DNA of 63,455 nt from a virus, in IMG/VR virus record IMGVR_UViG_3300024974_000006, positions 1-63,455 of that record; one strand, given 5' to 3'. Under the pieces are notes generated by a model. The model made no database searches, had not been told where the DNA came from, and saw only the letters and a program-made list of their open reading frames with translations. The translations under genes and the position numbers were made by a program. This document shows, piece by piece, positions 1,896 to 32,300 of this stretch (positions are counted from its first letter, which is position 1; each line of letters begins with the position of its first letter).

Positions 1896-2357
1896 ATGGT
1901 TGTAGCATTATTAATTTATTTAGCAGATGTAATAGGATCACTGAAAGCTCTTTTATCAGGGGTTATTCTTATATCATTTATAGCCCTTGCTGTACTAGGC
2001 TTATACTATTTTCTTACAGAAAACTCTGGGTATTTATCTGACGAAGAAAGTATTAACTTAGCAGCCTGCAAAAAATGGATCTCGAATGTAGCTATAGTTA
2101 TAATGGTGGCTGCGGGTTTAAGTGTCATTATCCCATCTAAGAACACATTCTATCTAATGATAGGTGGATATGTAGCCCAATCAGCTTACACAGAAATCAA
2201 GACAAGTCCGCTGACTGATAAGATCAATAAAATCATTCAACTTCGTCTTGACAGTGAATTAAATAACATGCTAAAGGAAGAAGCCGATGTAACTAAAGAG
2301 GAAGGTCTACAAGTGGAAAACAATAGCTCCAAAGAAGGTAATAATAAAAATGAATAA
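1896..2357 (+). CDS. Membrane protein with charged C-terminal tail (153 aa)
   Basis: GAGGA precedes the ATG. Two long hydrophobic stretches (about residues 15-40 and 63-82) flank a polar loop. From about residue 100 the protein is charged and probably helical (KINKIIQLRLDSELNNML), ending in a Lys/Glu/Asn-rich tail. The stop overlaps the next start by 8 bases. The family was not recognised. It could sit in the inner membrane with a cytoplasmic helical tail. Confidence 0.75.
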   Translation: MVVALLIYLADVIGSLKALLSGVILISFIALAVLGLYYFLTENSGYLSDEESINLAACKKWISNVAIVIMVAAGLSVIIPSKNTFYLMIGGYVAQSAYTEIKTSPLTDKINKIIQLRLDSELNNMLKEEADVTKEEGLQVENNSSKEGNNKNE

Positions 2358-2586
2358 AGTTTTACATATAAATAAACACACCAAAACTATCTACATAGAA
2401 AAAGATGGAAAGGCTAATCACTATACTTGCAATAACCTTAATGTTCTTAACAGGGTTTTTACAAATGATATTGTAAAAGCAAATGGTAGACCCTTCATCA
2501 ATGAACCGAAGAGATATAATAAAGATACTCATATCCCAGTTATGATAGCTAATAATAATTGGGTATTGAGAGACCTTCCCAACTAA
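2350..2586 (+). CDS. Small protein with GxPF motif (78 aa)
   Basis: It begins MNKVLHINKHTKTIYIEKDG and overlaps the preceding gene by 8 bases. Its second half (NGRPFINEPKRY, then THIPVMI and NWVLRDLP) resembles the second half of the protein at 3878 (DGYPFMSRPKKL, TYIPIKI, AFWALRE) and, more weakly, the one at 4224 (SGAPFIQEQ). The three look like distant paralogues scattered in the ligation cassette. Function unknown; they could be carriers, substrates or small subunits. Confidence 0.7.
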   Translation: MNKVLHINKHTKTIYIEKDGKANHYTCNNLNVLNRVFTNDIVKANGRPFINEPKRYNKDTHIPVMIANNNWVLRDLPN

Positions 2587-2603
2587 ATAATCACAAGGCC
2601 ACC

Positions 2604-3035
2604 ATGAAACAACCTGTAGACTTTCCATTACCCATCTTTGTAGCAGTTTATGGCTCATTAAAGAAAGGCTTTGGGAATCATCGACTACTATCAGACTCCA
2701 CCTTAATCGGTAGAGGTTCTACTGATACTACTTATGACATGATAAGCTTAGGAGGATTCCCTGGTTTAGTTGAGGGAAATAACCATATTCAAGTAGAAGT
2801 GTATGAAGTAACAGAAGATAAGCTCCTACATTCCCTTGATCGATTGGAAGGTTATCCATCTTTCTATAATCGAGAGCTGATTGATATATCGCTGGACAAT
2901 GGAAGTAAATGTACAGCATGGATATACCATTTGAAGAATAAACAAGGATATACTGGTGGAAGGTATACATCAGTAAATAGCTTTGATATAAAAAGTAGAC
3001 AAGTTTGGGTTAATCCAAACTATTCGATTAATTAA
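2604..3035 (+). CDS. Gamma-glutamylcyclotransferase-like protein
   Basis: The ATG at 2604 has AAGG about 6 nt upstream; extending to 2559 would add residues with no homologous look and overlap the previous gene. It is 143 residues. The family signature VYGSLKKG is at residues 15-22. LDRLEGYPSFYNRELI (79-94) carries the expected acid (Glu82). Relatives release 5-oxoproline from gamma-glutamyl amides (GGCT, BtrG, AIG2 types). Next to ATP-grasp and amidoligase genes it could trim or edit gamma-glutamyl groups on the cassette's product. Family call good; substrate unknown. Confidence 0.85.
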   Translation: MKQPVDFPLPIFVAVYGSLKKGFGNHRLLSDSTLIGRGSTDTTYDMISLGGFPGLVEGNNHIQVEVYEVTEDKLLHSLDRLEGYPSFYNRELIDISLDNGSKCTAWIYHLKNKQGYTGGRYTSVNSFDIKSRQVWVNPNYSIN

Positions 3036-3045
3036 TAGGAGAAAT

Positions 3046-3891
3046 ATGAGAACACTATTTGTCCATAAAAGAAAATTTAAGAATGGAGATAAAAGGGATG
3101 GTTTAAGTGGTCTATGCTCTACAGCTCTTGCAGTAAAGCTTGAATTACCAATCTTCACTCCAAAGATACGCCCAGTCAAGGATAAATCATTTATTATTAT
3201 CAATTGGGGCCTAACTAAAATCCCTTGGTTATCTAACAACACTGGATCAAAGGTAATAAATCATCCAGACAGTATTAGAAATGCAGTTGATAAGAAGATT
3301 GCGTTCAGAATGATGAATGGAAAAGTTAATATTCCAGATTGGACTACTGATAGGAAAGTAGCTGAGAGTTGGTTTGATAAGGATGGCAAGGCAGTTGTAT
3401 TTTGTAGAACACTTTCTAAATCGTACCAAGGGAAAGGTATTGTAATAGCTACCTCCAAGGAAGAACTAGTCCAAGCCCCTTTATACACTCTTAGAGTACC
3501 TAAAAAATACGAATATAGAGTACACATCGTTAACAATAAACCTGTTCATATCCAGCAAAAGAAGAGGCTTTCAAAAGAAAAGTTAGAAGAAAGAGGTTTA
3601 AGTTTAGAGAGTAACGGGCTAGTTAGATGTTGGAATAATGGATACATCTACAGCACTAACATAGTCCTACCTGAGAAAGAAGATATTCTGAACTCTATTA
3701 TAGAACAATCAAAGAAAGCAATTGAAGCTTTAGATCTTAATTTTGGGGCTGTAGATGTGATTGCTAGTAACAAAGGCAGAATTACTGTGCTAGAAGTTAA
3801 TACAGCTCCAGGAATAGAAAACTCTACTATAGACAGATATGCTTCTGCATTTGCAGAACTGATTAAAGAGGTTGAGAATGAAGAAAAGTGA
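3046..3891 (+). CDS. ATP-grasp carboxylate-amine ligase
   Basis: The ATG follows TAGGAG. It is 281 residues. ATP-grasp features in order: a nucleotide-binding loop SYQGKGIV (126-133), an RVHIVNNKP strand (158-166), Asp237 in GAVDVI, and the metal/ATP-binding LEVNTAPG (249-256, Glu250 and Asn252). ATP-grasp ligases activate a carboxylate as acyl-phosphate and join it to an amine. Such genes sit beside amidoligases in phiEco32-like phages. It resembles the RimK-like group, but the substrate cannot be read from sequence. It overlaps the next gene by 14 bases. Confidence 0.88.
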   Translation: MRTLFVHKRKFKNGDKRDGLSGLCSTALAVKLELPIFTPKIRPVKDKSFIIINWGLTKIPWLSNNTGSKVINHPDSIRNAVDKKIAFRMMNGKVNIPDWTTDRKVAESWFDKDGKAVVFCRTLSKSYQGKGIVIATSKEELVQAPLYTLRVPKKYEYRVHIVNNKPVHIQQKKRLSKEKLEERGLSLESNGLVRCWNNGYIYSTNIVLPEKEDILNSIIEQSKKAIEALDLNFGAVDVIASNKGRITVLEVNTAPGIENSTIDRYASAFAELIKEVENEEK

Positions 3892-4231
3892 GGTAGTAAA
3901 TATAGTTACTCTTATGGGTAAAGATACAAATTATTACAAAATAAAACAATCTCATATAGGAAGAGATAAACCAAGAAGCCATCCTTTATTAAATACTTAT
4001 ATTTTCACGAAAAAGGAGAGTATACTAGGTTTAAAAAAAGGAGATATACTACGATGCGATGGATACCCTTTTATGTCACGCCCTAAAAAACTTAGAGTTT
4101 TTAGGCATCCAAACACTGAACATAGAAACGGTGTTTCTCATAAACACTGGATTAACACTTATATACCTATAAAAATCGGTCAGTTAGGTACTACCGCTTT
4201 CTGGGCATTAAGAGAGGAACAACATGGATAA
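3878..4231 (+). CDS. GxPF-motif small protein (117 aa)
   Basis: I chose the ATG at 3878 (GAGG 7 nt upstream) over an in-frame TTG at 3872. It begins MKKSEVVNIVTLMGKD. The second half has CDGYPFMSRPKKL, then TYIPIKI and AFWALREE, matching the pattern in the 2350 protein. It lies between the ATP-grasp ligase and the first amidoligase and overlaps both neighbouring genes by a few bases, so it is surely part of the same operon. Function unknown; a partner or substrate of the ligases is a guess from position. Confidence 0.75.
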   Translation: MKKSEVVNIVTLMGKDTNYYKIKQSHIGRDKPRSHPLLNTYIFTKKESILGLKKGDILRCDGYPFMSRPKKLRVFRHPNTEHRNGVSHKHWINTYIPIKIGQLGTTAFWALREEQHG

Positions 4232-4556
4232 AAGATTAAATAACCCAAGAGTAACTGGTACGAGAAGGCACCCTATTCAGAGAGAAAAAACAGAAATATC
4301 ATTTATGGTTGTTAATGAGACTAATGAGGTGATTCATAGAGTCTCACCAAATCCGTTAGCTATGTCTCATTATGCAACCCCTCTAAGAGTTGGAGACATT
4401 ATCGCGACGTCAGGTGCGCCTTTTATACAAGAACAAGCACCTATTATCATTAACGATAATATAGTTTATAGGCCAGTAAGATTAACATCGACTAACTCAC
4501 CCACACAAAGATTTGCATTAAGGTTTGTAAATTTTGTAACGAATTCAACCAATTGA
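4224..4556 (+). CDS. GxPF-motif small protein (110 aa)
   Basis: Starts 8 bases inside the previous gene. It begins MDKRLNNPRVTGTRRHP, a basic N-terminus. LRVGDIIATSGAPFIQEQ at about residues 55-72 matches the KKGDILRCDGYPFMSRP pattern of the 3878 protein, so the two are probable paralogues. The C-terminus is polar and Asn/Thr-rich. It lies directly upstream of the COOH-NH2 ligase gene. Function unknown. Confidence 0.72.
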   Translation: MDKRLNNPRVTGTRRHPIQREKTEISFMVVNETNEVIHRVSPNPLAMSHYATPLRVGDIIATSGAPFIQEQAPIIINDNIVYRPVRLTSTNSPTQRFALRFVNFVTNSTN

Positions 4557-4563
4557 GGTCGAT

Positions 4564-5382
4564 ATGAATAAGTACTTTTTAATAGGGTCTGATCCAGAAG
4601 CATTCGTTAGAAACTCTAATGGTGAATTGGTATCAGCTATTGGGGTAGTACCCGGAACAAAACACGAACCATTCAATACAAAGAATGGTAGTGTACAGCA
4701 TGATAACATCTTAGCTGAATTTAATTCACGCCCATCTTCTTCATTAGAAGAGTTTATAGAGAATCATAAACTGATTATTCATGACCTCCAGTCAATATTA
4801 ACTCCATTAGACTTGCATTTGGATTTTATTGCATCTGCTTTAGCATCTGACGAACTACTATCAGATCCGATTAGTAGAGTAGCAGGATGTGACCCTGATT
4901 TTAATGCTTGGTTGCTTTGTCAGAACCCACCAGCAAATTATAATATAACTAATGTTAGAGCAGCTGGTGGACATTTACACTTATCATTTGATCAAGCAGA
5001 AGAAGATTTTGATCATGCTAATCGTTTGAAGTTCGTTAAAGCTATGGATTTTAATGTTGGAGTTGCCTCTGTAATATTCGATGAGGATCAACAAAGAAGA
5101 AAATACTATGGTCAAGCTGGTTCTTTTAGACCAAAAGATAAAAGTATCGGAGATCCTTATAATGGTGTAGAATATCGCACACTCTCTAACTTCTGGTTAA
5201 GATCAGAAGAGATGATGAAATGGGTATATGAGAGAGCTAAGATGGTCTATCATGACTTGGATTATATATCCTCTATAGCTGAGAGTGTTGGTGGAGAGAT
5301 CCAGCAGATCATTAATACTGGAGATAAAGATAAAGCTGAAAAGTTTTGTTATAGGATGGAGATAAATTATGACTTCGGTTGA
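4564..5382 (+). CDS. Amidoligase, phiEco32-like COOH-NH2 ligase type 2
   Basis: It is 272 residues. The opening LIGSDPEAF (6-14), then HDNILAEFNSRP (46-57), GGHLHLSF (135-142, with the HLH pair) and VEYRTLSNFW near residue 200 form the pattern of the phage COOH-NH2 ligase family, a glutamine-synthetase-like fold. These enzymes are predicted to form amide or isopeptide bonds using ATP. It lies between small unknown genes and the second amidoligase, so it belongs to a modification operon. The family call is strong; the target (capsid, wall or peptide) is unknown. Confidence 0.88.
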   Translation: MNKYFLIGSDPEAFVRNSNGELVSAIGVVPGTKHEPFNTKNGSVQHDNILAEFNSRPSSSLEEFIENHKLIIHDLQSILTPLDLHLDFIASALASDELLSDPISRVAGCDPDFNAWLLCQNPPANYNITNVRAAGGHLHLSFDQAEEDFDHANRLKFVKAMDFNVGVASVIFDEDQQRRKYYGQAGSFRPKDKSIGDPYNGVEYRTLSNFWLRSEEMMKWVYERAKMVYHDLDYISSIAESVGGEIQQIINTGDKDKAEKFCYRMEINYDFG

Positions 5383-6097
5383 TAGAAAATCTATCTTACA
5401 TAATACCGAACACTATATAGACGAACCCCAAGATTATGCAGTTCGTTACTCTGAGTGCTATGGCATCTATAAAGATAATGTAATAAGAGCTCATGATTTT
5501 GGTATATCGGATAGTGGGGTTTATTGTAGAATTAGAAAAATAGTTAAAAATCAAGATAATATTAATTCATTCTTAAGTGATGCTTCACATATTAAAGTTG
5601 AAGATGTAGGACTTCAATTCCCAATCCCTACTCTAGGTTTTATCAATCTTGGGACTTATGCTATCTTTCTTCAAAGAACACATCTTAAGAGAGGGAATGG
5701 TAGGTATAGAAGAGGTTTTAGGCCGGACACAATATCAGGGTTTAATCCTTTTACAAAAGAACTTAGAGCCATTGGTGAGTACGACATATTAGATGGTGAA
5801 AGAGAAAACTATATGTCAGATGAAGTGTTTATGAGAATAGCTCCTAATTTATTCTTTCCAGAGCCATTCTTATCTTTTGAGGAGGCTTTGAATGAAGTAA
5901 CATCATTTAATCGACTTGGGATAGCCTTTACTCCATCTTTAGCTATTAAGATAGATCTATTATCTAATAGGATAGTCTTATTGAAAAATTGTTGGATTAT
6001 AGGTGACTACGATTTCAAAACAAATGTATTTAATATGCGAGTAGATACATTTAATTCAGAACTGGGTCGATTAAAAGTCCCATTTAAAGAGGTTTAA
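5369..6097 (+). CDS. Unknown protein of the amidoligase cassette (242 aa)
   Basis: Overlaps the upstream ligase by 14 bases and ends 2 bases before the next amidoligase, so it is co-translated with both. The product begins MTSVDRKSILHNTEHY, is soluble, and contains the basic HLKRGNGRYRRGFRP near residue 110. I do not recognise a fold or catalytic motif. Its invariable-looking position between two amidoligases suggests a shared role, such as adaptor or substrate binding. That is inference only. Confidence 0.8.
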   Translation: MTSVDRKSILHNTEHYIDEPQDYAVRYSECYGIYKDNVIRAHDFGISDSGVYCRIRKIVKNQDNINSFLSDASHIKVEDVGLQFPIPTLGFINLGTYAIFLQRTHLKRGNGRYRRGFRPDTISGFNPFTKELRAIGEYDILDGERENYMSDEVFMRIAPNLFFPEPFLSFEEALNEVTSFNRLGIAFTPSLAIKIDLLSNRIVLLKNCWIIGDYDFKTNVFNMRVDTFNSELGRLKVPFKEV

Positions 6098-6098
6098 T

Positions 6099-7496
6099 AT
6101 GTCAAACATAGCAGAAGCTTTCGGATATAAATCTGATGATAAGCTATACAGAACTACTTCTGAGCTAGTGACCTCTGATCATGGGATAGGGGTTGAGGTT
6201 GAGATAGAAAATGTGATTTACGATTGGCAAAGAGATGCTCCAGATATTCCTAAAGCAGTGTACTTTAGGCATAGTAATCAAAACGAGCTTCCTAATTTAT
6301 CCAAATATTGGAATATCGTAAAAGACGGATCATTAAGAAAAGGTGTTGAGTTTATCTTTAGGGAAGCTTATAAAGGGGCTAATATTACAGAAGCTTTAGC
6401 AACAATGAATAGCTTCCTAAGCATCTACAGACATAATGGATTACCACCAATAGCATCAGATAGATGCTCAATCCATGTACATTTAGATGCTAGAGACATG
6501 GATGAATATCAGCTGAATAATATTTTATTAATTTATATTTTGATTGAACGAATTCTATTTAAACATGTTAATCCGTTAAGAGTAAAGAATAATTATTGCC
6601 GACCATTATCTGACTCAGCATTCATATATGTACTGAATGATTTAAAAAGAGTAGCTTTATCAAAGCAGATTTCTGATCTTCCAAACATTATCTCAAACTC
6701 TTGTGATAAGTATTCAGCATTAAACATAAGACCTTTAATTAAATATGGGTCTATTGAGTTTAGACACCATCAAGGGACTACTGATATGTCCCAAGTAAAG
6801 GACTGGATTAATATAATCCTTACTCTAAAATGTCTAGCTATGTCTACAGACATTAAAGATATTTTAGCAATTTATGAGAAGAAGCCAATTAGAGTATTAA
6901 CTGATTTATTTGGTCAAACTGTTCTTGCTGAGCCTACTTTTATAGATAGTTTTGAATGGGAATTGGAACTAGCAAGAGGTTATAATGATGTTAAAGAGAT
7001 ATTTGATTTTGATAACCTTGATAAAGCCTCGAAATTAAAGTACTCTAAAAAGAAGACGAATGAAAAAACTTTAATTGCTAGATACATTGAAAAGAATAAT
7101 ATAACAGTACCTGAAGTTAATAAGTCAACTAAACAAAGTCCTACAGAAGAAATTAATAATGAGCCTAGCACTACTATTGATGCACAAGGAGATGCCTCTG
7201 TAAGAATTAGAATGATGAGTGTTGCGGATAGATCAACACCTTCTGACTACAGCCAATTTTCTGGTAGAGCAACTGGGTTACGTCCTACTCTTACAGACAA
7301 TCTATCTTGGGACTCTATGCCCCCAGGGATGGAAGCTTTGTTGAGGGTTTCTACAAATACGACTGAAACTTCTGAAGAAGTACCAAGGATAGTTAACTTA
7401 AGTTCTTATCAGATTGGCGTCTTATCGCCACGAATTCAAGAACAAATTTATTTACTAAGAACTTTATTCAATCAACCAAGACCCCAGGAACAATAA
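6099..7496 (+). CDS. Putative amidoligase (Amidoligase_2 type)
   Basis: It is 465 residues. Glutamine-synthetase-like ligase marks: GIGVEVEIENV (29-39, alternating Glu), KDGSLRKGVEFIF (75-87), CSIHVHLDARDM (123-134) and GSIEFRHHQGT near 220. These supply the acidic and His residues expected to bind metal and ATP. From about residue 310 the protein is low-complexity, Thr/Ser/Glu-rich, with no domain I can name. It is clearly different from the ligase at 4564, so the phage has two amidoligases. GGTT and AAAGAGG precede the start. Confidence 0.85.
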   Translation: MSNIAEAFGYKSDDKLYRTTSELVTSDHGIGVEVEIENVIYDWQRDAPDIPKAVYFRHSNQNELPNLSKYWNIVKDGSLRKGVEFIFREAYKGANITEALATMNSFLSIYRHNGLPPIASDRCSIHVHLDARDMDEYQLNNILLIYILIERILFKHVNPLRVKNNYCRPLSDSAFIYVLNDLKRVALSKQISDLPNIISNSCDKYSALNIRPLIKYGSIEFRHHQGTTDMSQVKDWINIILTLKCLAMSTDIKDILAIYEKKPIRVLTDLFGQTVLAEPTFIDSFEWELELARGYNDVKEIFDFDNLDKASKLKYSKKKTNEKTLIARYIEKNNITVPEVNKSTKQSPTEEINNEPSTTIDAQGDASVRIRMMSVADRSTPSDYSQFSGRATGLRPTLTDNLSWDSMPPGMEALLRVSTNTTETSEEVPRIVNLSSYQIGVLSPRIQEQIYLLRTLFNQPRPQEQ

Positions 7497-7497
7497 G

Positions 7498-8721
7498 ATG
7501 TGTGGACATGTAGGATTTGTAAATCGTGGTAATGGATATTTAGCAGACTATGATACTTGGTTTAAACAAGCTTTATATTGTGGGGCTTTGAGAGGAGTGC
7601 ATGGGACCGGCATAGTTGGAGTATCTTCACTAAACCAGATGTCAATGTATAAAAGGGCATTAGCTGCTTCTGACTTTCTAGAACTAGCGGCTACTAAAAA
7701 GATTATTACTGGAACTAATAAAGCTTTGCTAGGTCATAATAGATATGCTACACAAGGCGGCGTATCTTGTGAGAACTCTCATCCATTTAAAGTCGAGCAT
7801 ATTACCCTTCTCCATAATGGTACTTTAACTTCTCATAGATCATTAGCAGGAGGCAATACATTCACTGTTGATAGCGAAGCATTAGCGGCTCATTTGGCTG
7901 TGAGTGAAACATACAAAGAAGCATTAGAGGAAGTTGATGGAGCGTATGCTTTAGTTTGGCATAACGCTAACAATGACACAATTAACTTTGCTAGGAATGA
8001 TGATAGAGCATTATACCTAGGGTTTCACTATGGTAAAGATGGAGATATTAAAACTGGACAGACTATCTTCTATGCCAGTGAAAAAGGTATGTTAGAATGG
8101 TTGTGTGCAAGAAATAATATTAAATTAGAAAGAGTGGCTCTTTTAAAACCAGGAGTTGTATTAACAGTACCATTAGATATAAAAGAGGAAATATCTGATT
8201 CTACATTTACTCCAAAGGAACCAAAAGCTTATGACTACTATCAGACTGGTGGTTATTATGGTAGAGGGGGCACAAATGGAAAAAAGCCAGAAAGCGAGCA
8301 ATCGTCTCCAAGAACAAACATAGTAAAAAGAAATAACTCTTATCCAACATTAAAAAAGTATTCATATTTATTAGGAGTAAAATCTCTTCAATTAAAAATA
8401 ACAGCATTTAAACCATATCAAGCATCAGGCGGCTATGGAGTGCTTTGTGGAATCTATAATAATGATCTTGAAATTCAAATTGGTGGACAGACTAAACAAG
8501 ATATGGATTCTTATTTAGGTAAGATGGTAAAGGTGACCCTTACATCAATGCACTCTGATGAGGTAGCATCAGGAAGGATACTAGGGCTAGCAGACGAGCT
8601 ACCAGATGATAATGAAGAAGATTATGAGGATTATGGTGGTGGTACTGTAGTACAATTTGAAAAAAAAAAGTCTACTGCTCTAATTGTGACGAAGAGGTTA
8701 TTTCAGAGAAACCATTTATAG
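7498..8721 (+). CDS. Class II glutamine amidotransferase, zero-frame product
   Basis: It is 407 residues. Catalytic Cys2 directly follows Met1 (MCGHVGFV), as in GlmS/PurF-type N-terminal nucleophile amidotransferases. LLGHNRYATQGG and LLHNGTL supply the substrate-binding motifs. The enzyme would release ammonia from glutamine for a partner ligase. About residues 255-300 form a polar linker, followed by a C-terminal region of unknown fold. The zero frame ends 51 bases after a run of 10 A at 8660-8669. The -1 frame carries a further conserved-looking domain (see 8670-8783), so this stop may belong to only one of two products. Confidence 0.88.
   Translation: MCGHVGFVNRGNGYLADYDTWFKQALYCGALRGVHGTGIVGVSSLNQMSMYKRALAASDFLELAATKKIITGTNKALLGHNRYATQGGVSCENSHPFKVEHITLLHNGTLTSHRSLAGGNTFTVDSEALAAHLAVSETYKEALEEVDGAYALVWHNANNDTINFARNDDRALYLGFHYGKDGDIKTGQTIFYASEKGMLEWLCARNNIKLERVALLKPGVVLTVPLDIKEEISDSTFTPKEPKAYDYYQTGGYYGRGGTNGKKPESEQSSPRTNIVKRNNSYPTLKKYSYLLGVKSLQLKITAFKPYQASGGYGVLCGIYNNDLEIQIGGQTKQDMDSYLGKMVKVTLTSMHSDEVASGRILGLADELPDDNEEDYEDYGGGTVVQFEKKKSTALIVTKRLFQRNHL
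8664..8670 (+). promoter_or_regulatory. Slippery heptamer A-AAA-AAG for -1 frameshift
   Basis: In the zero frame the codons read GAA AAA AAA AAG TCT, so A-AAA-AAG sits in register at 8664-8670. This is the heptamer used by E. coli dnaX for -1 frameshifting. It lies in a run of ten A, where RNA polymerase slippage adding one A would give the same frame. A GGTGGTGG stretch about 20 nt upstream could act as an internal Shine-Dalgarno. No strong downstream hairpin was seen. Confidence 0.6.
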
Positions 8722-8783
8722 CAATTGATAATAAACCTTATTGCAACTATTGCGTTGCCTCATTTCCAGAGAGTATATATTAA
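8670..8783 (+). CDS. -1 frame zinc-ribbon tail of the amidotransferase
   Basis: Reading from G8670 in the -1 frame gives VYCSNCDEEVISEKPF and continues to a TAA at 8781-8783. Cys pairs occur as CSNC and CNYC about 20 residues apart, a treble-clef or zinc-ribbon pattern. There is no start codon of its own. The frame ends 3 bases before the next ATG, typical of real gene spacing here. It is therefore most likely a C-terminal extension made by frameshifting, or by a one-base sequencing error in the A-run. Confidence 0.65.
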   Translation, partial: VYCSNCDEEVISEKPFIAIDNKPYCNYCVASFPESIY

Positions 8784-8786
8784 ATT

Positions 8787-9755
8787 ATGAGAATTGTAAA
8801 ATTAGAACTTCCAACAAGTAGAGTAAATGACCACACTTCTATAGATATTAGTAATGCCCCTGCATTTGCTTTATTAAAAATGAAGGAGGATGATACATTC
8901 CTAGAATTAAATTACCCATCTTTATGTAGAGATTTTGTTGGGCCAGCTTGTGTATGTGCTCACAAAAAGGTAAGGAATATATTTTCAAATATGATTCTAG
9001 AAGAAGATCTATTGACTGATACAAACCAAACGTCCATCTCTATCTCTATTAACCCAGATGGAATGAATCATTTATTAAATAACATCAGAATATTGCATGA
9101 GTTTGAACAACATCTCGGTATAAAACTAACTGAAGTCTGTAGTACTAACGAATTAGATAGATTCGGCAGGGCTCATTTAGTTATCATAGGTGATAAATTT
9201 TGGATAAAGGCTCCATTAGCAATCTCATTCTATACTTTTTTCTTAAGATGTTTAACATATTTCGAGTATCATAAGAATATAGGTACTATAGAGAGTGCGT
9301 TTAAATACCTATCGTCAAAAGGCTCTGATAACGTAGATTCTAATTATGCCAAAAAGATTATATCAAATATAGATGTAAGATTATTATTTGGTAATTTAGA
9401 TAGAGTTTTAGGAGATAATCCTTTCACTGGTTTAAATGATAAGGTAATTCTTAAAGATACTTCTTGGATTGAAGATAAAACAAAGAGCTATCCAGATATT
9501 TTAGAAGGAGTTTACAAAAGCTCTTACTTTAATAACAAATATCAGTTTAGAATGAGTAGCCTCTATTCTCAATCAGGGCTAGTCACCTTCTCAGACTGTC
9601 TATTTTTAGTACATCAAGAACGGCAGCACTATATAGGAGTTTCGAATCTTGGTTTAGATTGGGTCTCCAACTATATTGATTTAGCTGTAGAGAATAAAGT
9701 TTTAACCCTTAAAAGAAACCCTACTAATGGTCTTCAGTCATTTGAAGCAAACTAG
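8787..9755 (+). CDS. Unknown protein, paralogue A of a tandem pair (322 aa)
   Basis: It begins MRIVKLELPTSRVND. It shares with the next gene the blocks CRDFVGPACV (about residue 50), IGDKFWIKAPLAISFYTF (about 133-150), LDRVLGDNPFTGLND (about 207-221) and LGLDWVSNYIDLAVE near the C-terminus. The two are tandem duplicates of a family I do not recognise. No signal peptide or membrane segment. Placement straight after the amidotransferase suggests the same operon and process. Confidence 0.85.
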   Translation: MRIVKLELPTSRVNDHTSIDISNAPAFALLKMKEDDTFLELNYPSLCRDFVGPACVCAHKKVRNIFSNMILEEDLLTDTNQTSISISINPDGMNHLLNNIRILHEFEQHLGIKLTEVCSTNELDRFGRAHLVIIGDKFWIKAPLAISFYTFFLRCLTYFEYHKNIGTIESAFKYLSSKGSDNVDSNYAKKIISNIDVRLLFGNLDRVLGDNPFTGLNDKVILKDTSWIEDKTKSYPDILEGVYKSSYFNNKYQFRMSSLYSQSGLVTFSDCLFLVHQERQHYIGVSNLGLDWVSNYIDLAVENKVLTLKRNPTNGLQSFEAN

Positions 9756-9774
9756 AGTCTTATTACATTAAAAA

Positions 9775-10797
9775 TTGAGAATAACCAAAATGAATGAAAA
9801 AGTAAATTTAGTAATAGTAGATTATGGCAATAGTTATGGTAGACCACTTTCAACTCAAGCCCCTTTATTCTCTATCCTTCGCAAAGTAGTAGAGTTTGAC
9901 AAGAAAGAAGTCTACTATGAATTAGCACTAGAGTCTAAGTGTAGAGATTTTGTCGGTAGTACTTGTTTAGCTTCTAATCTAAGATTTCATAATCCTTTAA
10001 ATACTAACGATAAAAATAGAATTGCTTCTATTGATGAAGCGCTTGTCTCTATATCAATAAATGCCCTTCATTCAGATTTACCAAAGTCTAGAATAGGCAT
10101 TTTAAATGATATAGAGAGAGAGATGGGTATCACTCCTACAACTGTCCATGAAACCAATGTTAAAATTGGAATTAATGGTAGGAAAAAGTTAGTATTTATC
10201 GGAGATAGCTTATGGATGAAGTCTCCACATGCAATATCTATCTACACTTTCCTAATAAGATGTTTGTGCTATCCATCTGATAAATCAATAACAACTATTG
10301 AAGAATTATTCAATATGATTTTAATAGAGTATACAAACTCTAATGATGCTTCTTTCATATTCAGATTTCTACCTTATATCGATATTAGATTCTATCTAAT
10401 TAACTTAGATAGAATATTAGGTAAGAACCCATTAACAGGTATGAATGATGAAGAGTTAACTAACACAGTTTTTAGTATAGAAAGTAGCTCTTTTGGACAA
10501 TATTCTATGGACCATCAAAGTACTTATTCTAACAAGTATATTAGAACTAATTATAGATTCTCTTTGAATGTAACGCATCCTCAATCAGGAATAGTTCATA
10601 TAACATACTTATTAACCCTTATAGAAAAAGGCACTTTTATGTCAGATATGTCTGAGTCTTGCATGGGCTTAGATTGGGTTTCCAATTATATTGATTTAGC
10701 TATAGAGAAAGGGATTTTCAAATCAGTTAAAGTAGATGAAAAAGAGTCATTTAAAAGAATCACTAAGACATGGGAGAATAATGACAGAAAAAAATAA
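9775..10797 (+). CDS. Unknown protein, paralogue B of a tandem pair (340 aa)
   Basis: Shares CRDFVGSTCL, IGDSLWMKSPHAISIYTF, LDRILGKNPLTGMND and LGLDWVSNYIDLAIE with the preceding gene. The start is uncertain: a TTG at 9775 gives MRITK, like MRIVK in paralogue A, but has no ribosome site. The ATG at 9790 is an alternative with a weak GAGA upstream. It overlaps the primase-helicase gene by 17 bases, tying the ligation cassette to the replication block transcriptionally. Confidence 0.82.
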   Translation: MRITKMNEKVNLVIVDYGNSYGRPLSTQAPLFSILRKVVEFDKKEVYYELALESKCRDFVGSTCLASNLRFHNPLNTNDKNRIASIDEALVSISINALHSDLPKSRIGILNDIEREMGITPTTVHETNVKIGINGRKKLVFIGDSLWMKSPHAISIYTFLIRCLCYPSDKSITTIEELFNMILIEYTNSNDASFIFRFLPYIDIRFYLINLDRILGKNPLTGMNDEELTNTVFSIESSSFGQYSMDHQSTYSNKYIRTNYRFSLNVTHPQSGIVHITYLLTLIEKGTFMSDMSESCMGLDWVSNYIDLAIEKGIFKSVKVDEKESFKRITKTWENNDRKK

Positions 10798-12412
10798 ATA
10801 TCTAAGAAACGAAAGTTGCCCATCTTGTGGATCGTCTAATGGTCTAGGAGTTTATCTTAGACCTAATGGATCAACATTTGGAAAATGCTTTAAATGTAAT
10901 GAGGTACATAGTATGGATGAAACAAAAGACGTTGTTAGTAATGCTCCATCTAAAATAGATTATGATTATTACAGTGCTGAGTTTCATCCATTAAAAAGTA
11001 GAGGTATATCACAAAAAGTATGCGAGAAGTATGAAGTAAAGAGTGTAGTAGATTCTGATGGAAATGATTTAGTACACTTTTATCCAGTATTAAATGGAGA
11101 CCTGTCTCTATCAGTGTGTATTAGGGAAGTTAAAGGTAAAAAGTTTAAATGGGTGGATGCAGGAGCTAATCAGGAATTCTTTGGACAAAGGGTTGTTGGT
11201 AGTAAGGGTAAGATGATTATTATTACTGAGGGTGTTTGTGATTGCCTAGCGGCAGTTGAAATGCTAGCATTACAAGGAAAGTCCTATAGGGTTGTCTCTG
11301 TTAATAATGGTGCAGGCTCAGCAGTAAAAGTAGTAAAAGATAATTATGAATGGTTAGCCTCTTTTGAGAATATCTTCTTAGCATTTGATCAAGATGAACC
11401 AGGGCAGAAAATGGTTCCTTCTATATCTGAGATGTTTCCCCCTAATAAAGTAAAGAATATAACTTTCTCTGAGAAAGACCCAAATGCCTTACTACTATCA
11501 GGGAAATCCAAGGAATTCTTAGAAGCTATCTATTGTGCTAAAGAAAGCAGGCCAGACGGTATTGTAAGTGTAGAAGATTTGTTTGATGAGGCTATTAAAC
11601 CCCCAGAAATGGGCTTATCTTTTCCTTGGCCTACATTAACTGAGGCTACTTACGGATATAGAGATGGAGAACTTTGGGGTATAGGCGCAGGCTCAGGAAC
11701 TGGAAAAACAGAATTCTTTAAAGAGTGCATTCATCATACAATCAATTTTCACCATGAAACAGCTGGAGTTATCTTTTTAGAAGAGCCAGCAGCCAAAACA
11801 CTTAAAGTATTAGCTGGTAAAAAAGTTAATAAGAGATTCCATATTCCATCAGATAAAGGCGGAGATTGGACTATAGAAGAATTGGTAGATGGTATTAATG
11901 ACTTAAAAGGAAAGGTTTTCCTTTATAATCATTTTGGAGCAAAAGACTGGGAATCTATTAAACCTAAGATAAGATTCATGGTTCAGTCTTTAGGTATTAA
12001 AAGAATTTATTTAGATCATTTAACTGCGTTAGTAGCTCAAGAGGATAATGAGTATAAAGCACTCAATAGGCTTATGGAAGAAATGTCTAGTCTTTGCCAA
12101 GAGCTTAATTGTACTCTTTTTTATGTCTCTCATTTGCGTAAAGCTTCAGGTACTCCACATGAAGAAGGTGGAAGAGTTACAGCAGATCAGTTTAAAGGTA
12201 GTGGGGCAATCGTCTTTTGGTCAAACTTTCTTATTGGGCTTGAAAGGAATCAACAGGCAGAAGATTTGGATGAAAGAAATACAACAACTCTCAGAGTTCT
12301 AAAAGATAGAAATACAGGATTAGCTACAGGAACTACTTTTAGATTAAAGTATAACCATACTACAGGTAGATGGGGAGAAGAAGATGAAGATGAATATAAT
12401 GAATCTTTTTAG
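10781..12412 (+). CDS. T7 gp4-like primase-helicase
   Basis: The ATG at 10781 follows GGGAG, and the zinc finger starts right behind it: CPSC (13-16) and CFKC (36-39). A TOPRIM region follows with IITEGVCDCLAA and AFDQDEPGQK. The C-terminal helicase has Walker A GAGSGTGKT (about 302-310), RIYLDHLTAL and YVSHLRKASG. The enzyme makes primers and unwinds DNA at the fork. At 543 residues it is close to T7 gp4. The end is acidic, as expected for contact with the polymerase. No other helicase was seen. Confidence 0.93.
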   Translation: MTEKNKYLRNESCPSCGSSNGLGVYLRPNGSTFGKCFKCNEVHSMDETKDVVSNAPSKIDYDYYSAEFHPLKSRGISQKVCEKYEVKSVVDSDGNDLVHFYPVLNGDLSLSVCIREVKGKKFKWVDAGANQEFFGQRVVGSKGKMIIITEGVCDCLAAVEMLALQGKSYRVVSVNNGAGSAVKVVKDNYEWLASFENIFLAFDQDEPGQKMVPSISEMFPPNKVKNITFSEKDPNALLLSGKSKEFLEAIYCAKESRPDGIVSVEDLFDEAIKPPEMGLSFPWPTLTEATYGYRDGELWGIGAGSGTGKTEFFKECIHHTINFHHETAGVIFLEEPAAKTLKVLAGKKVNKRFHIPSDKGGDWTIEELVDGINDLKGKVFLYNHFGAKDWESIKPKIRFMVQSLGIKRIYLDHLTALVAQEDNEYKALNRLMEEMSSLCQELNCTLFYVSHLRKASGTPHEEGGRVTADQFKGSGAIVFWSNFLIGLERNQQAEDLDERNTTTLRVLKDRNTGLATGTTFRLKYNHTTGRWGEEDEDEYNESF

Positions 12413-13799: not shown

Positions 13800-14023
13800 A
13801 AGAAGAAACTAATAATTACAAACATCTATACGAGTTAGAAAGAGATTCATACTTTAAAATAGCTTCTACAAATGAAGTTAATGAATTCCCTATTTTACAT
13901 CTGAAACGTATCGATGGTATGTACTCTCTTTGTTATGATGAACAAGGTAAAACATATCACTTAGCAGCATTCACAATAGTTGAGCAAGTAGATAAACCGA
14001 ATAATTGGAGTGGAATAAAATGA
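13796..14023 (+). CDS. Hypothetical protein (75 aa)
   Basis: Overlaps both neighbours by 4 bases (ATGA), so it is translationally coupled to the RNA ligase. It begins MKEETNNYKHLYELERDSYF. The second half reads as short beta strands (GMYSLCYDEQGKTYHLAAF). No family recognised. Confidence 0.7.
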   Translation: MKEETNNYKHLYELERDSYFKIASTNEVNEFPILHLKRIDGMYSLCYDEQGKTYHLAAFTIVEQVDKPNNWSGIK

Positions 14024-15099
14024 GTAGAAAACTAGCTACTATCAGAAGAATAGCAGAAATAAAAAGCATTGAAGGTGCTGATAGGATTGTGGCTTATCGA
14101 GTAGATGGCTGGTGGGTAATAGGGCAAAAGGATCAATTTAATATAGATGATTTAGTTCTTTATTTAGAGATTGACTCTTGGGTACCTACCAAATTAGCTC
14201 CATTCTTAAGTAGAGGAAAGGAGCCTAGAGAGTTCAAAGGGATTAAAGGAGAAAAACTAAAAACAATTAGAATGAAAGGTCAAATATCCCAAGGTCTAAT
14301 TTTACCTTTAGTAAAAGAAGGCACCTTCTGGGGGTATCAGGAGACTACTCCAGCAGGAAGAACTTTACTAATAGTTGTAGATGAATATGAAGATCTTACG
14401 GAAACTCTAGGAATTATGGTATGGGAGGCCCCCACTAAATATGATAGCAGAGGTAACTACATAGGGAACCCTGAAGCTAGAGAAGGTGGTTTTCCTTGGT
14501 ACATACCTAAAACAGATCAAGAAAGAATACAAAATTGTTCTAAGCAGTTATCAAGATGGATTCAAAATAGAGAGGAATTTGAAGTAACCGAGAAATTACA
14601 TGGTTCTTCTATGACAGTGTATGTTAATGATCAGGATGAGGGAGTATGTTCTAGGAATATTAATCTTAAAGTTCCAGAAAATGGAGTATTTAATCCTTAT
14701 TGGCTTGTAGCTCAATCAAATGAGTTAATACCAAAGTTAAGAAGCACTGGTAGAAACCTTGCTATTCAAGGAGAGCTGATAGGACCAGGAGTACATGGTA
14801 ATATGTACAACCTAGATAAGATAGATTTCTATCTATTTAATATCTGGGATATTATACATCAAAGATGGTTCTCTTCAGAAGAAAGAGTACAACTATGTGA
14901 ATTATTGAATATAAAGCATGTTCCCATTCTACCTGTATTTAAAGTAACACCTGAAACAACTATTGATTCACTATTAAGTTCAGCAGATGGAAACTCTATA
15001 CTTAATCCTAATGCCTTTAGAGAAGGGTTAGTATTTAAAAGTTTAAAATCTAGTGAATCATTTAAAGCAGTATCTAATTATTTCTTGGAAAGAGAATAG
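14020..15099 (+). CDS. RNA ligase, DRB0094 (Rnl5-like) family
   Basis: I chose the ATG at 14020 (GGAG about 9 nt upstream); an in-frame TTG at 14005 is unlikely. It is 359 residues. The N-terminal half looks like an OB-type module (GWWVIGQKDQFNIDDLVLYL). The nucleotidyltransferase core has the adenylated lysine in EKLHGSSM (Lys192), QGELIGPG (Glu252), and FREGLVFKS (Glu335, Lys340), ending KAVSNYFL as motif V. Relatives seal nicks with an RNA 3'-OH end. No polynucleotide kinase or tRNA gene was seen, so it may act alone, for example against host RNA-cleaving defences. Confidence 0.88.
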   Translation: MSRKLATIRRIAEIKSIEGADRIVAYRVDGWWVIGQKDQFNIDDLVLYLEIDSWVPTKLAPFLSRGKEPREFKGIKGEKLKTIRMKGQISQGLILPLVKEGTFWGYQETTPAGRTLLIVVDEYEDLTETLGIMVWEAPTKYDSRGNYIGNPEAREGGFPWYIPKTDQERIQNCSKQLSRWIQNREEFEVTEKLHGSSMTVYVNDQDEGVCSRNINLKVPENGVFNPYWLVAQSNELIPKLRSTGRNLAIQGELIGPGVHGNMYNLDKIDFYLFNIWDIIHQRWFSSEERVQLCELLNIKHVPILPVFKVTPETTIDSLLSSADGNSILNPNAFREGLVFKSLKSSESFKAVSNYFLERE

Positions 15100-17344: not shown

Positions 17345-17524
17345 ATGTCAGGAGTACCATATGAACATTCATTACTTATCGAATCAAATAATAATGAATT
17401 TTTAAATAGAAGTAGATTCTTTGAAACAGATGATACTGAATCAATTATAGATGCTATAGCTGATAAAGAACATTCAGATTGGCTAATAGATTTAGATGAA
17501 AGTGAGTTTAATGAAGGCTGTTAA
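17345..17524 (+). CDS. Hypothetical acidic protein (59 aa)
   Basis: GGTGG lies about 6 nt before the ATG. The product begins MSGVPYEHSLLIESNNNEFL and is strongly acidic towards the end (SDWLIDLDESEFNEGC). It overlaps the next small membrane gene by 14 bases. Acidic mimicry of DNA is possible for such proteins, but there is no direct sign. Not recognised. Confidence 0.6.
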   Translation: MSGVPYEHSLLIESNNNEFLNRSRFFETDDTESIIDAIADKEHSDWLIDLDESEFNEGC

Positions 17525-17630
17525 ATATAGATCAACGCTAGTATTATTACTAGTAATATCTGTAGTTACACCTTTTGTAGTATATTATCTTGTATTAAAT
17601 ATAATACAATTTGTTTTAAATAAAGCTTAG
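17511..17630 (+). CDS. Small single-pass membrane protein (39 aa)
   Basis: The ATG at 17511 lies inside the preceding gene's end; the product begins MKAVKYRSTLVLLLVISVV with a hydrophobic segment at about 9-33. GAGTTTA upstream is a weak ribosome site, so translation may be coupled. Function unknown. Confidence 0.5.
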   Translation: MKAVKYRSTLVLLLVISVVTPFVVYYLVLNIIQFVLNKA

Positions 17631-17642
17631 GAGAATTAAAGA

Positions 17643-18143
17643 ATGCCAATTTTAAGAGAAGTTCCTGTTATGTGGGCGCAAGTGTTATCCCCTAGCACAC
17701 AGTTTGAGCCTGCTTGGGAAATTCAAGTGTTGCTAACAGATGAACAAGCTGCTCAACTTAAGGAAGAAGCTAAAGCTGTTAATAAGAAAGGGATTAAGTT
17801 GAAAACGGAAGATGGAGCTACTTCTTTTAGATTCCGTAGGAAGGTAGCACGAGCAGATGGTAATGGAGAAAATAAGCCACCGTTGGTCTGTGGACCAAAA
17901 GGTAAAGACGATCATTGGGACAAACTTATAGGGAATGGGAGCATCTGCAATATTCAATATTCTTTCTCCGAATTTAATAATAAATATGGTGTTGGAGTTA
18001 CATCTGATTTAAAAGGGGTCCAAGTAATTAAGCATATCCCATTTGGAGAACAGGATGGAGAAGGGTTTGGGGAAGTAAATGTATCTGTTGACAGCCGTAA
18101 TACCCCTAATAAAGAGTCTTTTGATGATGAAGACTTCTCATAA
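17643..18143 (+). CDS. Single-stranded DNA-binding protein (T7 gp2.5-like)
   Basis: It is 166 residues. GGAG precedes the ATG at a good distance. A beta-rich OB-like body (PAWEIQVLL, TSFRFRRKVAR, NIQYSFSEF) is followed by a very acidic end, SFDDEDFS, the hallmark tail by which phage SSBs contact polymerase and helicase. It would coat exposed strands at the fork. Strong promoter upstream (17096) suits a protein needed in quantity. Confidence 0.82.
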   Translation: MPILREVPVMWAQVLSPSTQFEPAWEIQVLLTDEQAAQLKEEAKAVNKKGIKLKTEDGATSFRFRRKVARADGNGENKPPLVCGPKGKDDHWDKLIGNGSICNIQYSFSEFNNKYGVGVTSDLKGVQVIKHIPFGEQDGEGFGEVNVSVDSRNTPNKESFDDEDFS

Positions 18144-29324: not shown

Positions 29325-32300
29325 TTAAAATTCTTCTTGCATTTGAGTTCTAATTAACTTAGATCTACTGTTAATATCTCTTAGTTTAGAAGCTCTGTCT
29401 TCAAATGATAAATTACGATCATGCACTACCTTACTTCTTAAAGTAGCCACTTCCTGTAATCTCTTCTGATAATATTTCTTTCTATTGTAATCCCCAGATT
29501 CACTCACACCAATAGCACCAAATCCAGTAATACCGGCTAATACCTGTCCAGGAGTAGATTTAATATCACCAAACCTATCTTTAGGTGGGGTATTAGTAAC
29601 AAAAGTATCAACCATCTTGCTAGCCCATCCATGGGATGAAAGCCAAGCAGGAGTCATAATGTTCATAGAAAACAACATCAATTCAGAGAGTTGTTGACTT
29701 CCAGAAGCTCCAGGGGTCATAATGTTCTTTCCAGTAAAACTATCCTTACCATTTAGCATTGCTGCAACAGCAGTAGGGGTAGGACCACCTAAGAATCCAA
29801 ACTCATTAAATACTGTGCCTACTGATTGAACACCAGTAGAAATAGGTGATTCCATCCCATCTTCTACATAATTCTCATGAACTTTTCTAGCAGCAGTTAC
29901 ATACTGACTCCAAGGAATCAGATAATCTAATGGTAGTATTTGAGGACGATTAGAACTATCTTTGAAAGGTAAGAAAGCAGTACCTGCATTATGTCTATAA
30001 TAATCTGGTAATCTTCTTTTAAACTTTCTAATATCTTCATCGTCCCAATCATTAGCCATTTGAGAGATCATAGTAAGTAAAGCCGGAAGAGTAGCATACT
30101 GAGCAAACTTTAATGGATGTTTAATCATAGCTCTTATAGCAGCTGGACCAGCCTTATAAGTAAAAGTTAAGAAAGGAGCACCAAAAGGTATCCTTCTCAA
30201 AGTCCTTACCCAACTATGTACTTGGGTATAATCGAATAAAGTTTCATTAGCATGATTAGCCGCTTTAGTCAATAGAACTTGCTTATGATTATTATCTAGA
30301 TCATCTAACTTCTTATTATTTTGAGTTTCCCAAGTTTGAATATAATCTCTAAAAGCAACTGTTTTAAATGTGCCTTCAAGAAATGCAAACATCTTGGAAG
30401 TAGTAGCACTAGTTTTATGACCAGCCATTTTTAACATAGCCATAACTCTTTCATCAGTAAAATGAAGAATATCATCTAAACTAGTAGATTTTCTTTGAGC
30501 ATAAGCAGCTTGAGCAGCTTCTAATTCATCACCATATTGACTATAAATATCTTGCAGTTCTACGGCACTAAAAGTAGTACCAAATAATCCATAATCATTA
30601 GCCATCTTCCAGTAACTACTTTGCTGTCCATTTTTAGCTTTAATTAACTCATCAGTGAGCATCCCAATCAATTTAACTTTAGATGTGCTAGTACCTAGAT
30701 CTAACAGTGCAAAATTACCAAAGAAGTTTCTAACCCAACTAGCAGGATTCAACCCTACCATGCTAAGTTTCCAAAATCTATTAACTCTTTCTAGAGTACC
30801 ATTAGGAGCAAAGAATTTCTCAATGTTATCCTTATGTGCAGTATTATAAGGTGCTACAAATGACTCCAAATCATTAGCCACTTCCTTTCGTACATATTTA
30901 CCAGATAGAGCACCCATTTGTTTGTTCTTAGGGAGCCTAACATAGTTATCCTTTAAGAAAGCATCTTTATCATCAGAGGTTGTCTGTCCTATTTGTAGAG
31001 CATGTTCATGAGCATCAGTAATAATCTTATCTTCTATCTTCCTAATATCTTCTTCCAATTTTACTGTACTTTCTTTAAAAGCGTCGATAGATACTTTAGA
31101 ATTACTAAAGAAATTATTTTGATCTTCTTTATTTAACTCATTAATAATATATAAATTTTGTTCTAATTGCTCATACGCCTTATCTATACTTAGTCTATGT
31201 CCACTATATTTTATTTCAGCGTTATTAGTTAGTACCCAATAAGTACTATCTGTTTTAGACACTTTATTAATGGTATTAAACATCTCTAATAATAAGTGGT
31301 CTCTAGCCATAACTCCATAAGTCTCAGCGACTAAGAATCTAACATCCTTTATCTGTCCTAAAGCTAGCTTATCTAGTTCACTTCTCTCCTTCTTCTTTTT
31401 CATCCAAGAGAGGGCAGAAGGTCTTTTACCTGATCCTCTATAAGCTTTAACAAACTTTAAATATTGGACATGTAAGTAAGCATCTTCATTCTTCTCAAAC
31501 ACATTCTTATCTATTGCACCTAGATCGGATAGATACTTTCCTGTTTCTCTAATTGCAGTTTTAGCTTTAAGAATAACTTTCTTTTGGATGGCAGTTACAG
31601 GTAAGTCATCTACTTTAGCACCTTTAGTAATAAAATACTCTAACACCGCTTGGTTTTGTAATGGATCTAAGCCTTTTAAAGCATGGGAGAGGGCAGTAGT
31701 AGCCTCTTCTATATTAGCAATCTTACCTTTGGTAATATTAGCAATACCAGAATAAGCTTCTTCATATTGCATATCCCCGAAGACTCTCATAGATTTTAAG
31801 ATAGGAGTATGTTTAAGAGTATTATTAAACTTCTTATATGCCCTAGTAAATACATTATCTGATAATTCACCAAATCCACTTAAGAACACAGACCCAAAAG
31901 CTTTCTCATCTTCTAATAGACTATAAGGAGAGTATTGATGAATAATCTGTTCTGGAGGTAATTGAGTGTCACCAATAGAGTAAGATTGATTTCCATCCCT
32001 AACATCACTATTAACTTCAGCACTCTCATTAGCAACAGTTGGAATCTTACCAAAAGGTTTATCTGAGAACCATTGTTCTGCTGGATTAATAGTATCAAAG
32101 ATACGATCAGTGGATTCAGCTATAGCACTTTCTAAATCTTCTCTAGTAAGAGTATCAAAACTATTACCATAATACCTTTTTAATAAGTGTTTAATCTTAC
32201 TAATAATATTATTTAACCAGTTCTCTCTATTCCTTCTAAGGTCAGTCCTTTTAGGACTTGATTTATCACCTAATCCAACTCTATTCTTAATAAACGTAGT

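Follow-up and report, generated by a model that had tools for sequence, protein, structure and literature searches.

A gamma-glutamyl-cleaving enzyme of one of two unrelated folds almost always accompanies the COOH-NH2 ligase of a phage amidoligase cassette

The DNA analysed here, referred to as the window, is a virus record of 63,455 bases (IMGVR_UViG_3300024974_000006), and positions 2350-10797 on its + strand constitute an amidoligase cassette, encoding a COOH-NH2 ligase (COOH), a second amidoligase (AMD2), an ATP-grasp ligase, a class II glutamine amidotransferase (GATase; the protein is called GAT below), a gamma-glutamyl cyclotransferase-like protein (GGCT) and the unassigned proteins S1-S3 and U1-U3. 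At least one of GGCT and the unrelated Peptidase_C26 (C26) is found in 84 of 85 dereplicated loci carrying COOH. That two unrelated folds able to cleave gamma-glutamyl bonds almost always accompany a glutamate-cysteine-ligase-like ligase is most simply explained by the formation and later removal of such a bond, and the cassette would then encode a phage amide-ligation pathway with a transient gamma-glutamyl group. We give this reading, which builds on the gene set, its synteny, the catalytic-type residues and the cleaving enzyme, a probability of about 40%.

The gamma-glutamyl-cleaving enzymes

In the window the cleaving enzyme is GGCT (positions 2559..3035, + strand, likely start ATG 2604), which matches PF06094 with E=1.3e-24 and has E. 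coli YtfP (1xhs) as its closest solved relative; the catalytic-type Glu97 is kept in 21 of 21 sequences and the YGxL motif is conserved. In most relatives C26 (PF07722 with E=2e-19 to 5e-16, PF00117 weaker) is encoded upstream of the ligase, with catalytic-type Cys102, His203 and Glu205 kept in 42 of 42. For the C26 of one such locus (L003) the best solved match is Lin1909 (3fij), and PuuD (6vtv) and CarA, the small chain of carbamoyl-phosphate synthase, are also matched.

The loci were collected with COOH as anchor, first 52 from IMG/VR and later up to 80 of at least 568 relatives by an alignment query, together with 16 from bacterial or metagenome-assembled genomes and ten annotated GenBank regions. 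The 85 loci are those remaining after dereplication at 90% ligase identity when flanking sequence was required; their architecture was determined by profile searches of the open reading frames (ORFs), and phylogeny enters the E-values and Fisher tests through dereplication only. C26 alone is present in 46 loci, GGCT alone in 25, both in 13 and neither in one, and the two enzymes tend to exclude each other, with p=5e-11 at 90% and p=5e-8 at 70% dereplication. Among the first 43 loci with context, before the second scan, the corresponding numbers were 26, 11, 6 and 0 (Fisher p=2e-6). Whole-record searches find GGCT and no C26 in the window, and C26 is absent also from all nine other tested GGCT-only records that had GGCT in both searches.

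A similar picture is seen in the 50,697 GenBank phage records, where the ligase is found in 316, GGCT in 283 and C26 in 55. For the largest host genera, and as counts per genus, not record-by-record matches, GGCT and C26 add up to the number of ligases: 105+16=121 in phages of Pseudomonas, 7+15=22 in Vibrio, 11+0=11 in Aeromonas, 8+0=8 in Proteus and 0+3=3 in Klebsiella, and the sum equals the ligase count also for Cronobacter (6) and Pseudoalteromonas (5). The two enzymes might be metabolic helpers that scavenge glutathione or gamma-glutamyl peptides, outside the ligase pathway, and GGCT indeed occurs in Arthrobacter phages (PMC5513430) and, together with a lone Amidoligase_2 and no other cassette enzymes, in Bacillus phage 055SW001 (L064, positions 8656-11070 and 17503-18141). 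However, both enzymes are rare in phages overall and yet nearly always occur with the ligase, and we give the helper function little credence. A poly-gamma-glutamate hydrolase is annotated near the two genes of the Bacillus phage.

From this distribution, removal of a gamma-glutamyl group would be an obligatory step, and gamma-glutamylation may be transient, as it is in the metabolism of butirosin or putrescine. In butirosin biosynthesis BtrJ adds a gamma-Glu group that is taken off by the GGCT-fold BtrG, and in putrescine catabolism the glutamine-synthetase-family PuuA adds the group and the C26 enzyme PuuD removes it, so that in both systems an ATP-dependent gamma-glutamylation is followed by removal by a GGCT-fold or C26 enzyme. 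The window differs from these systems in its ligase family and in having no polyamine enzymes and no acyl carrier protein. The initial annotation had taken GGCT for a possible editing enzyme; a predicted obligatory removal of the gamma-glutamyl group describes it better, since C26 replaces GGCT in most relatives. That one or the other of these unrelated gamma-glutamyl-cleaving enzymes is almost constantly present is new here, and the replacement of GGCT by C26 may already have been remarked on in earlier literature.

Ligases and glutaminase

All five enzymes named in the initial annotation are found by Pfam and/or PHROGs in one tight string with exactly six further ORFs, where at least six had been claimed, and active-site-type residues are conserved in all five families in alignments of relatives. 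COOH (4564..5382, + strand) is a phiEco32 type 2 ligase of the glutamate-cysteine-ligase-like superfamily with E=1.3e-8 to PF14395, above the cut-off, and E=2e-70 to phrog_3815, and D10, E12, K33, D47, E52, R132, H137, H139, R178, R189, E203 and R205 are invariant in 58 of 58 sequences. AMD2 (6099..7496, + strand) matches PF12224 over residues 120-240 (E=6.6e-13, above the cut-off) and has a long C-terminal tail; E35, E84, H126, H128, N209, E220 and R222 are kept in 59 of 59 and E33 in 58. The RimK-like ATP-grasp ligase (3046..3891, + strand) shows similarity to phrog_2599, 'ribosomal protein S6 glutaminyl transferase' (E=6e-55), with scores below the cut-offs for the Pfam ATP-grasp models, and Lys83, Glu156, Arg158, Lys172, Asp237, Glu250 and Asn252 are kept in 59-62 of 62.

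GAT (7498..8721, + strand; PF13522 E=1.9e-13) consists of a stand-alone glutaminase domain, starting with Met-Cys, and a C-terminal extension. R82, N107, G108 and D125 are kept in 54 of 56 sequences, and the closest solved structure is the glutaminase domain of GlmS (1xff). As a stand-alone glutaminase domain with an N-terminal Cys and related to that of GlmS, GAT is a probable source of ammonia for one of the ligases.

The start codon of GAT is unusual in some cassettes: AUU or AUC precedes the invariant N-terminal Cys in 17 of 131, and GTG or TTG in 2. ATT is found in L017, L026, L049, L008, L038, L034, L076, L052, L084, L082, L110, L021 and L058, and ATC in L039, L029, L022 and L120. A Shine-Dalgarno-like stretch is located just upstream in most of the 17, and 13 of them have no in-frame ATG, GTG or TTG between the preceding stop and the Cys, and a propeptide is therefore excluded there. 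The rare AUU and AUC starts suggest IF3-dependent control.

Conservation of the cassette and its described relatives

AMD2, GAT and the ATP-grasp ligase are each present in 84 of the 85 loci, U1 in 74, and primase within the fetched stretch in 65. Typically COOH, U1 and AMD2 follow one another, GAT stands on one side or the other of them, and the ATP-grasp ligase and primase/helicase come next. The order in the window is far beyond chance, as the same set recurs across diverse phage contigs. Relatives of COOH without other cassette members are encoded on three contigs of bacterial metagenome-assembled genomes (L152, L153 and L154, the last with two copies).

The closest relatives are Caudoviricetes sp. 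ctwe8250 (MW202615) and contigs L070 and L071, with a COOH 53-61% identical to that of the window and the same order, GGCT - ATP-grasp - COOH - U1 - AMD2 - GAT - U2 - primase/helicase. They differ from the window in having one U2 copy where the window has two and in the absence of S1 and S3, a relative of S2 being present in L071 only; L070 is also unlike the window in having inserted HNH-type ORFs, recognised by eye.

The window cassette is a member of the already described phage amidoligase cassette of phiEco32, LUZ24 and RIO-1, as COOH (PF14395), AMD2 (PF12224), the string of ATP-grasp ligase, GAT and GGCT, and the primase/helicase neighbour are all present. The founding prediction for such cassettes was reportedly made by Iyer et al. 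in 2009. The same enzymes are listed for a LUZ24-like phage in the UFV-P2 paper (PMC3890496), and Duhaime et al. (2017) describe a 'peptidoglycan modification cassette' conserved in RIO-1, phiEco32, 7-11, PA11, tf, LUZ24, PaP3 and CW02 (PMC5498523). A 2025 paper on a LUZ24-like phage gives the same reading and mentions a weakened wall or sites for endolysin as further possibilities (PMC11945000), and amidoligase and GATase genes are reported for OM43 phages in a paper from 2023 (PMC10580990). The initial annotation saw the cassette as an extended version; its enzymes are those of the relatives, and the set had been published for LUZ24-like, phiEco32-like and RIO-1-like phages (PMC3890496, PMC5498523, PMC11945000).

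The RIO-1/PSA-HP1, phiEco32-like and LUZ24-like cassettes resemble that of the window in carrying GGCT, GAT, COOH, AMD2 and the ATP-grasp ligase beside replication genes. In contrast to the window, GGCT and the ATP-grasp ligase follow GAT in the phiEco32 and LUZ24 types, and one or two 300-residue proteins with a CFG-type Cys (CFG proteins) stand before COOH where the window has U2 and U3. The variant found in CW02, PA11-type and many freshwater phages has the same ligases, U1 and GATase, with C26 (PF07722) instead of GGCT.

The unassigned proteins

The six ORFs without a confident family start at 2350, 3872, 4224, 5369, 8787 and 9775. U1 (5369..6097, + strand, 242 residues) belongs to the core of the cassette, usually between COOH and AMD2. 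Its AlphaFold2 model has a pLDDT of 80 and shows no significant match to the PDB, the best being an eIF5A fold with E=0.046. In BFVD, a library not built from the loci collected here, 11 matches with E<=1e-3 are found, down to 2.5e-10, and those with a phage name are proteins of CW02 and Vp_R1, both of which carry the cassette. In loci without U1, a fusion of U1 to GAT or AMD2 was considered and rejected, as no profile match was found. That U1 is a core member without a solved relative is new here.

U2 (8787..9755, + strand, 322 residues, with an invariant Cys47) and U3 (9775..10797, + strand, likely start ATG 9790, 340 residues) are paralogues with 34% identity in a recurrent invariant-Cys family, present in 10 of the 85 loci, which is also new here. 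The pair is likely to stem from a tandem duplication, because U2 is single in L054, L070 and L071, the three closest relatives. The model of U2 is of low confidence (pLDDT 59, about 80 for the N-terminal part) and gives one significant match to BFVD, a protein of an uncultured phage. Single-protein scans with U1 and U2 return known loci or further pieces of them only. COOH is kept together with U2 in a minimal locus (L069) and two short contigs (L143 and L147) without AMD2, GAT and ATP-grasp ligase in the fetched stretch, and U2 is therefore tied to the ligase step; L069 and L147 also carry C26 and GGCT. The same three enzymes are missing from the fetched stretch of two reduced loci on contigs of 196 and 297 kb (L004 and L005), which encode COOH, U2 copies, C26 and GGCT. 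The initial annotation had named genes that never co-occur with amidoligases as evidence against its proposal, and U1 and the U2/U3 family do co-occur with them.

The U2/U3 family is never found with a second family, C0, which is present in 33 of the 85 loci (p=0.006 at 90% and 0.02 at 70% dereplication). C0 has an invariant Cys55 and Arg142 (both 25/25) and mostly His195. No sequence homology links U2 to C0 or the CFG proteins by hhalign, and what U2 and C0 have in common is an invariant Cys. A short C-[FYHW]-[GAS] motif near the N-terminus is found in C0 and in the proteins encoded immediately ahead of the ligase in phiEco32- and LUZ24-like phages. It occurs in 29 of 93 upstream ORFs and in 13 of the 330 others (p=4e-12; 18/57 against 11/247 per cluster), an enrichment that is partly circular as the motif was chosen after seeing some of these sequences. 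The C0 proteins evolve fast, vary from 180 to 591 residues, have no Pfam match and are usually encoded just upstream of C26 or COOH (e.g. L013:4993-6768, L055:7088-8020, L065:5116-6027).

S1 (2350..2586, 78 residues), S2 (3872..4231, likely start ATG 3878, 119 residues) and S3 (4224..4556, 110 residues), all on the + strand, are diverged, lineage-specific paralogues with a common (G/N)DI..xxG.PF motif, S1 having no Pfam match. In shuffle tests the S1-S2 alignment beats 500 of 500 and S1-S3 496 of 500; the L071 relative of S2 (E=2e-6), which occupies the corresponding position, beats 500 of 500, as does S3 against this relative. Apart from the L071 protein they are conserved only in near-identical contigs, S1 being found outside the window only in one of these (L002), and their C-terminal ends are LPN, QHG and STN.

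These properties bear on the suggestion that proteins of the virion or host receive a peptide tag from the cassette, the small proteins serving as substrates, which we consider clearly unlikely. RimK-like ATP-grasp enzymes are generally known to modify proteins and the ligase superfamily to include the Pup ligase PafA, and U2/U3 and similar proteins vary fast around one invariant Cys, all of which would suit a tag; on the other side, S1-S3 are lineage-specific and have no conserved C-terminus, and the cassette lies on the replication arm, on the strand opposite to the virion genes. S1-S3 were also considered as Pup-like substrates and rejected, being lineage-specific, with no conserved C-terminus and no C-terminal Gly-Gly-Glu/Gln. 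The idea of a full pathway with small substrates in the initial annotation thus stands in part: the pathway is plausible, since two amidoligases, the ATP-grasp ligase, the GATase and a gamma-glutamyl-cleaving enzyme recur together with U1 as core, and nothing supports S1-S3 as its substrates.

Genome context, proposed pathway and target

The window has two arms, with + strand genes to about 29 kb (primase/helicase, RNA ligase, DNA polymerase, exonuclease, ribonucleotide reductase and thymidylate synthase) followed by virion genes on the - strand (portal, major head protein and tail assembly). The cassette is located inside the replication arm directly before the primase/helicase gene (10736..12412, + strand; phrog_239 E=2e-163), a constant 3' neighbour outside the pathway. 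Neighbouring cassette genes overlap or are closely spaced, with gaps of -28 to +65 bases, and the final 62 bases of the U3 ORF, the last one, lie within the primase gene as annotated. The gene starts come from mechanical calling, and because of the sequence upstream the ATGs given above for GGCT, S2 and U3 are likely to be the true starts. RNA ligase (14005-15099, phrog_968, E=1e-81) is encoded beside DNA polymerase, and a - strand gene at 29325-36578 encodes a protein of 2,417 residues that weakly matches PHROGs for virion RNA polymerase, endolysin and DarB-like proteins and is probably a giant protein of the virion.

Since the cassette is co-directional with the replication genes and opposite to those of the virion, modification of the virion, including that of the capsid mentioned in the initial annotation, is weakly disfavoured, and a host, metabolite or DNA target is weakly favoured. 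Hypermodification of DNA bases is very improbable: primase and DNA polymerase lie beside the cassette and thymidylate synthase in the same arm, but the pathway enzymes resemble those of peptide-bond chemistry, and no known base-hypermodification family is found among the window proteins scanned, which are part of its ORFs.

The literature interprets the ligases as enzymes that introduce unusual peptide linkages into the side chains of host peptidoglycan, and GGCT and the amidotransferase as enzymes that degrade or recycle it; the result would be superinfection exclusion, a weaker wall or new sites for endolysin. This reading has been proposed for RIO-1-like, phiEco32 and LUZ24-like phages (PMC5498523, PMC11945000, PMC10580990), in accounts whose passages on the cassette report no experiment. 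The host genera listed above for ligase-positive GenBank phages are all Gram-negative, as this reading would have it, but that bias may be due to sampling. Enzymes of the GGCT fold are generally known for activity on L-gamma-glutamyl amines and are not known to act on the D-Glu linkage of peptidoglycan. We regard the peptidoglycan reading as possible but doubtful.

For a pathway with a transient gamma-glutamyl group we infer the order of the reactions, the transience of the group, the roles of U1 and U2/U3 and the target as follows. COOH would use ATP to activate the gamma-carboxyl of glutamate and join it to the amine of an acceptor, and the ATP-grasp ligase and AMD2 would form one or two more amide bonds, one probably with ammonia from glutamine by way of GAT. 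GGCT in the window, or C26 in most relatives, would then take off the gamma-glutamyl group and free the amine of the finished product. U1 might assist the ligases structurally or as a scaffold, and the U2/U3-type invariant-Cys protein a partner of COOH, perhaps a carrier or acceptor. The pathway would be active during replication, on a host or metabolite target; we lean towards a cell-envelope peptide or a small amine. A narrower version is unlikely as a whole, namely that gamma-glutamylation protects an amine while an amide product is assembled by the two other ligases and the glutaminase on or together with the fast-evolving invariant-Cys proteins (U2/U3, C0, CFG), with GGCT and C26 as interchanging deprotecting enzymes.

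Several observations weigh against the transient group. At 50% dereplication 23 of 24 loci have GGCT and/or C26 and the exclusion is not significant (p=0.18), and the robust statement is therefore 'at least one' and not 'exactly one'; the alternation of the two enzymes follows lineages. The sole exception (L089) has neither enzyme across its 83-kb record. C26 resembles the class I glutaminases, since PF00117 also matches and CarA is among its PDB matches, and might instead provide ammonia or use a different substrate. The acyl carrier protein needed in butirosin biosynthesis was not seen in the window, whose small proteins have no Pfam match. As the ligase was the anchor for collecting the loci, finding U1 and U2 alongside it is partly a consequence of the sampling.

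More than ten years after it became known, the cassette is found in hundreds of lytic phages with sequenced genomes, some of them used against Pseudomonas and E. coli, and no product or phenotype has, to our knowledge, been linked to it. The near-obligate GGCT or C26, the U1 core subunit and the invariant-Cys partners turn 'some peptide ligation' into a specific, testable chemistry.

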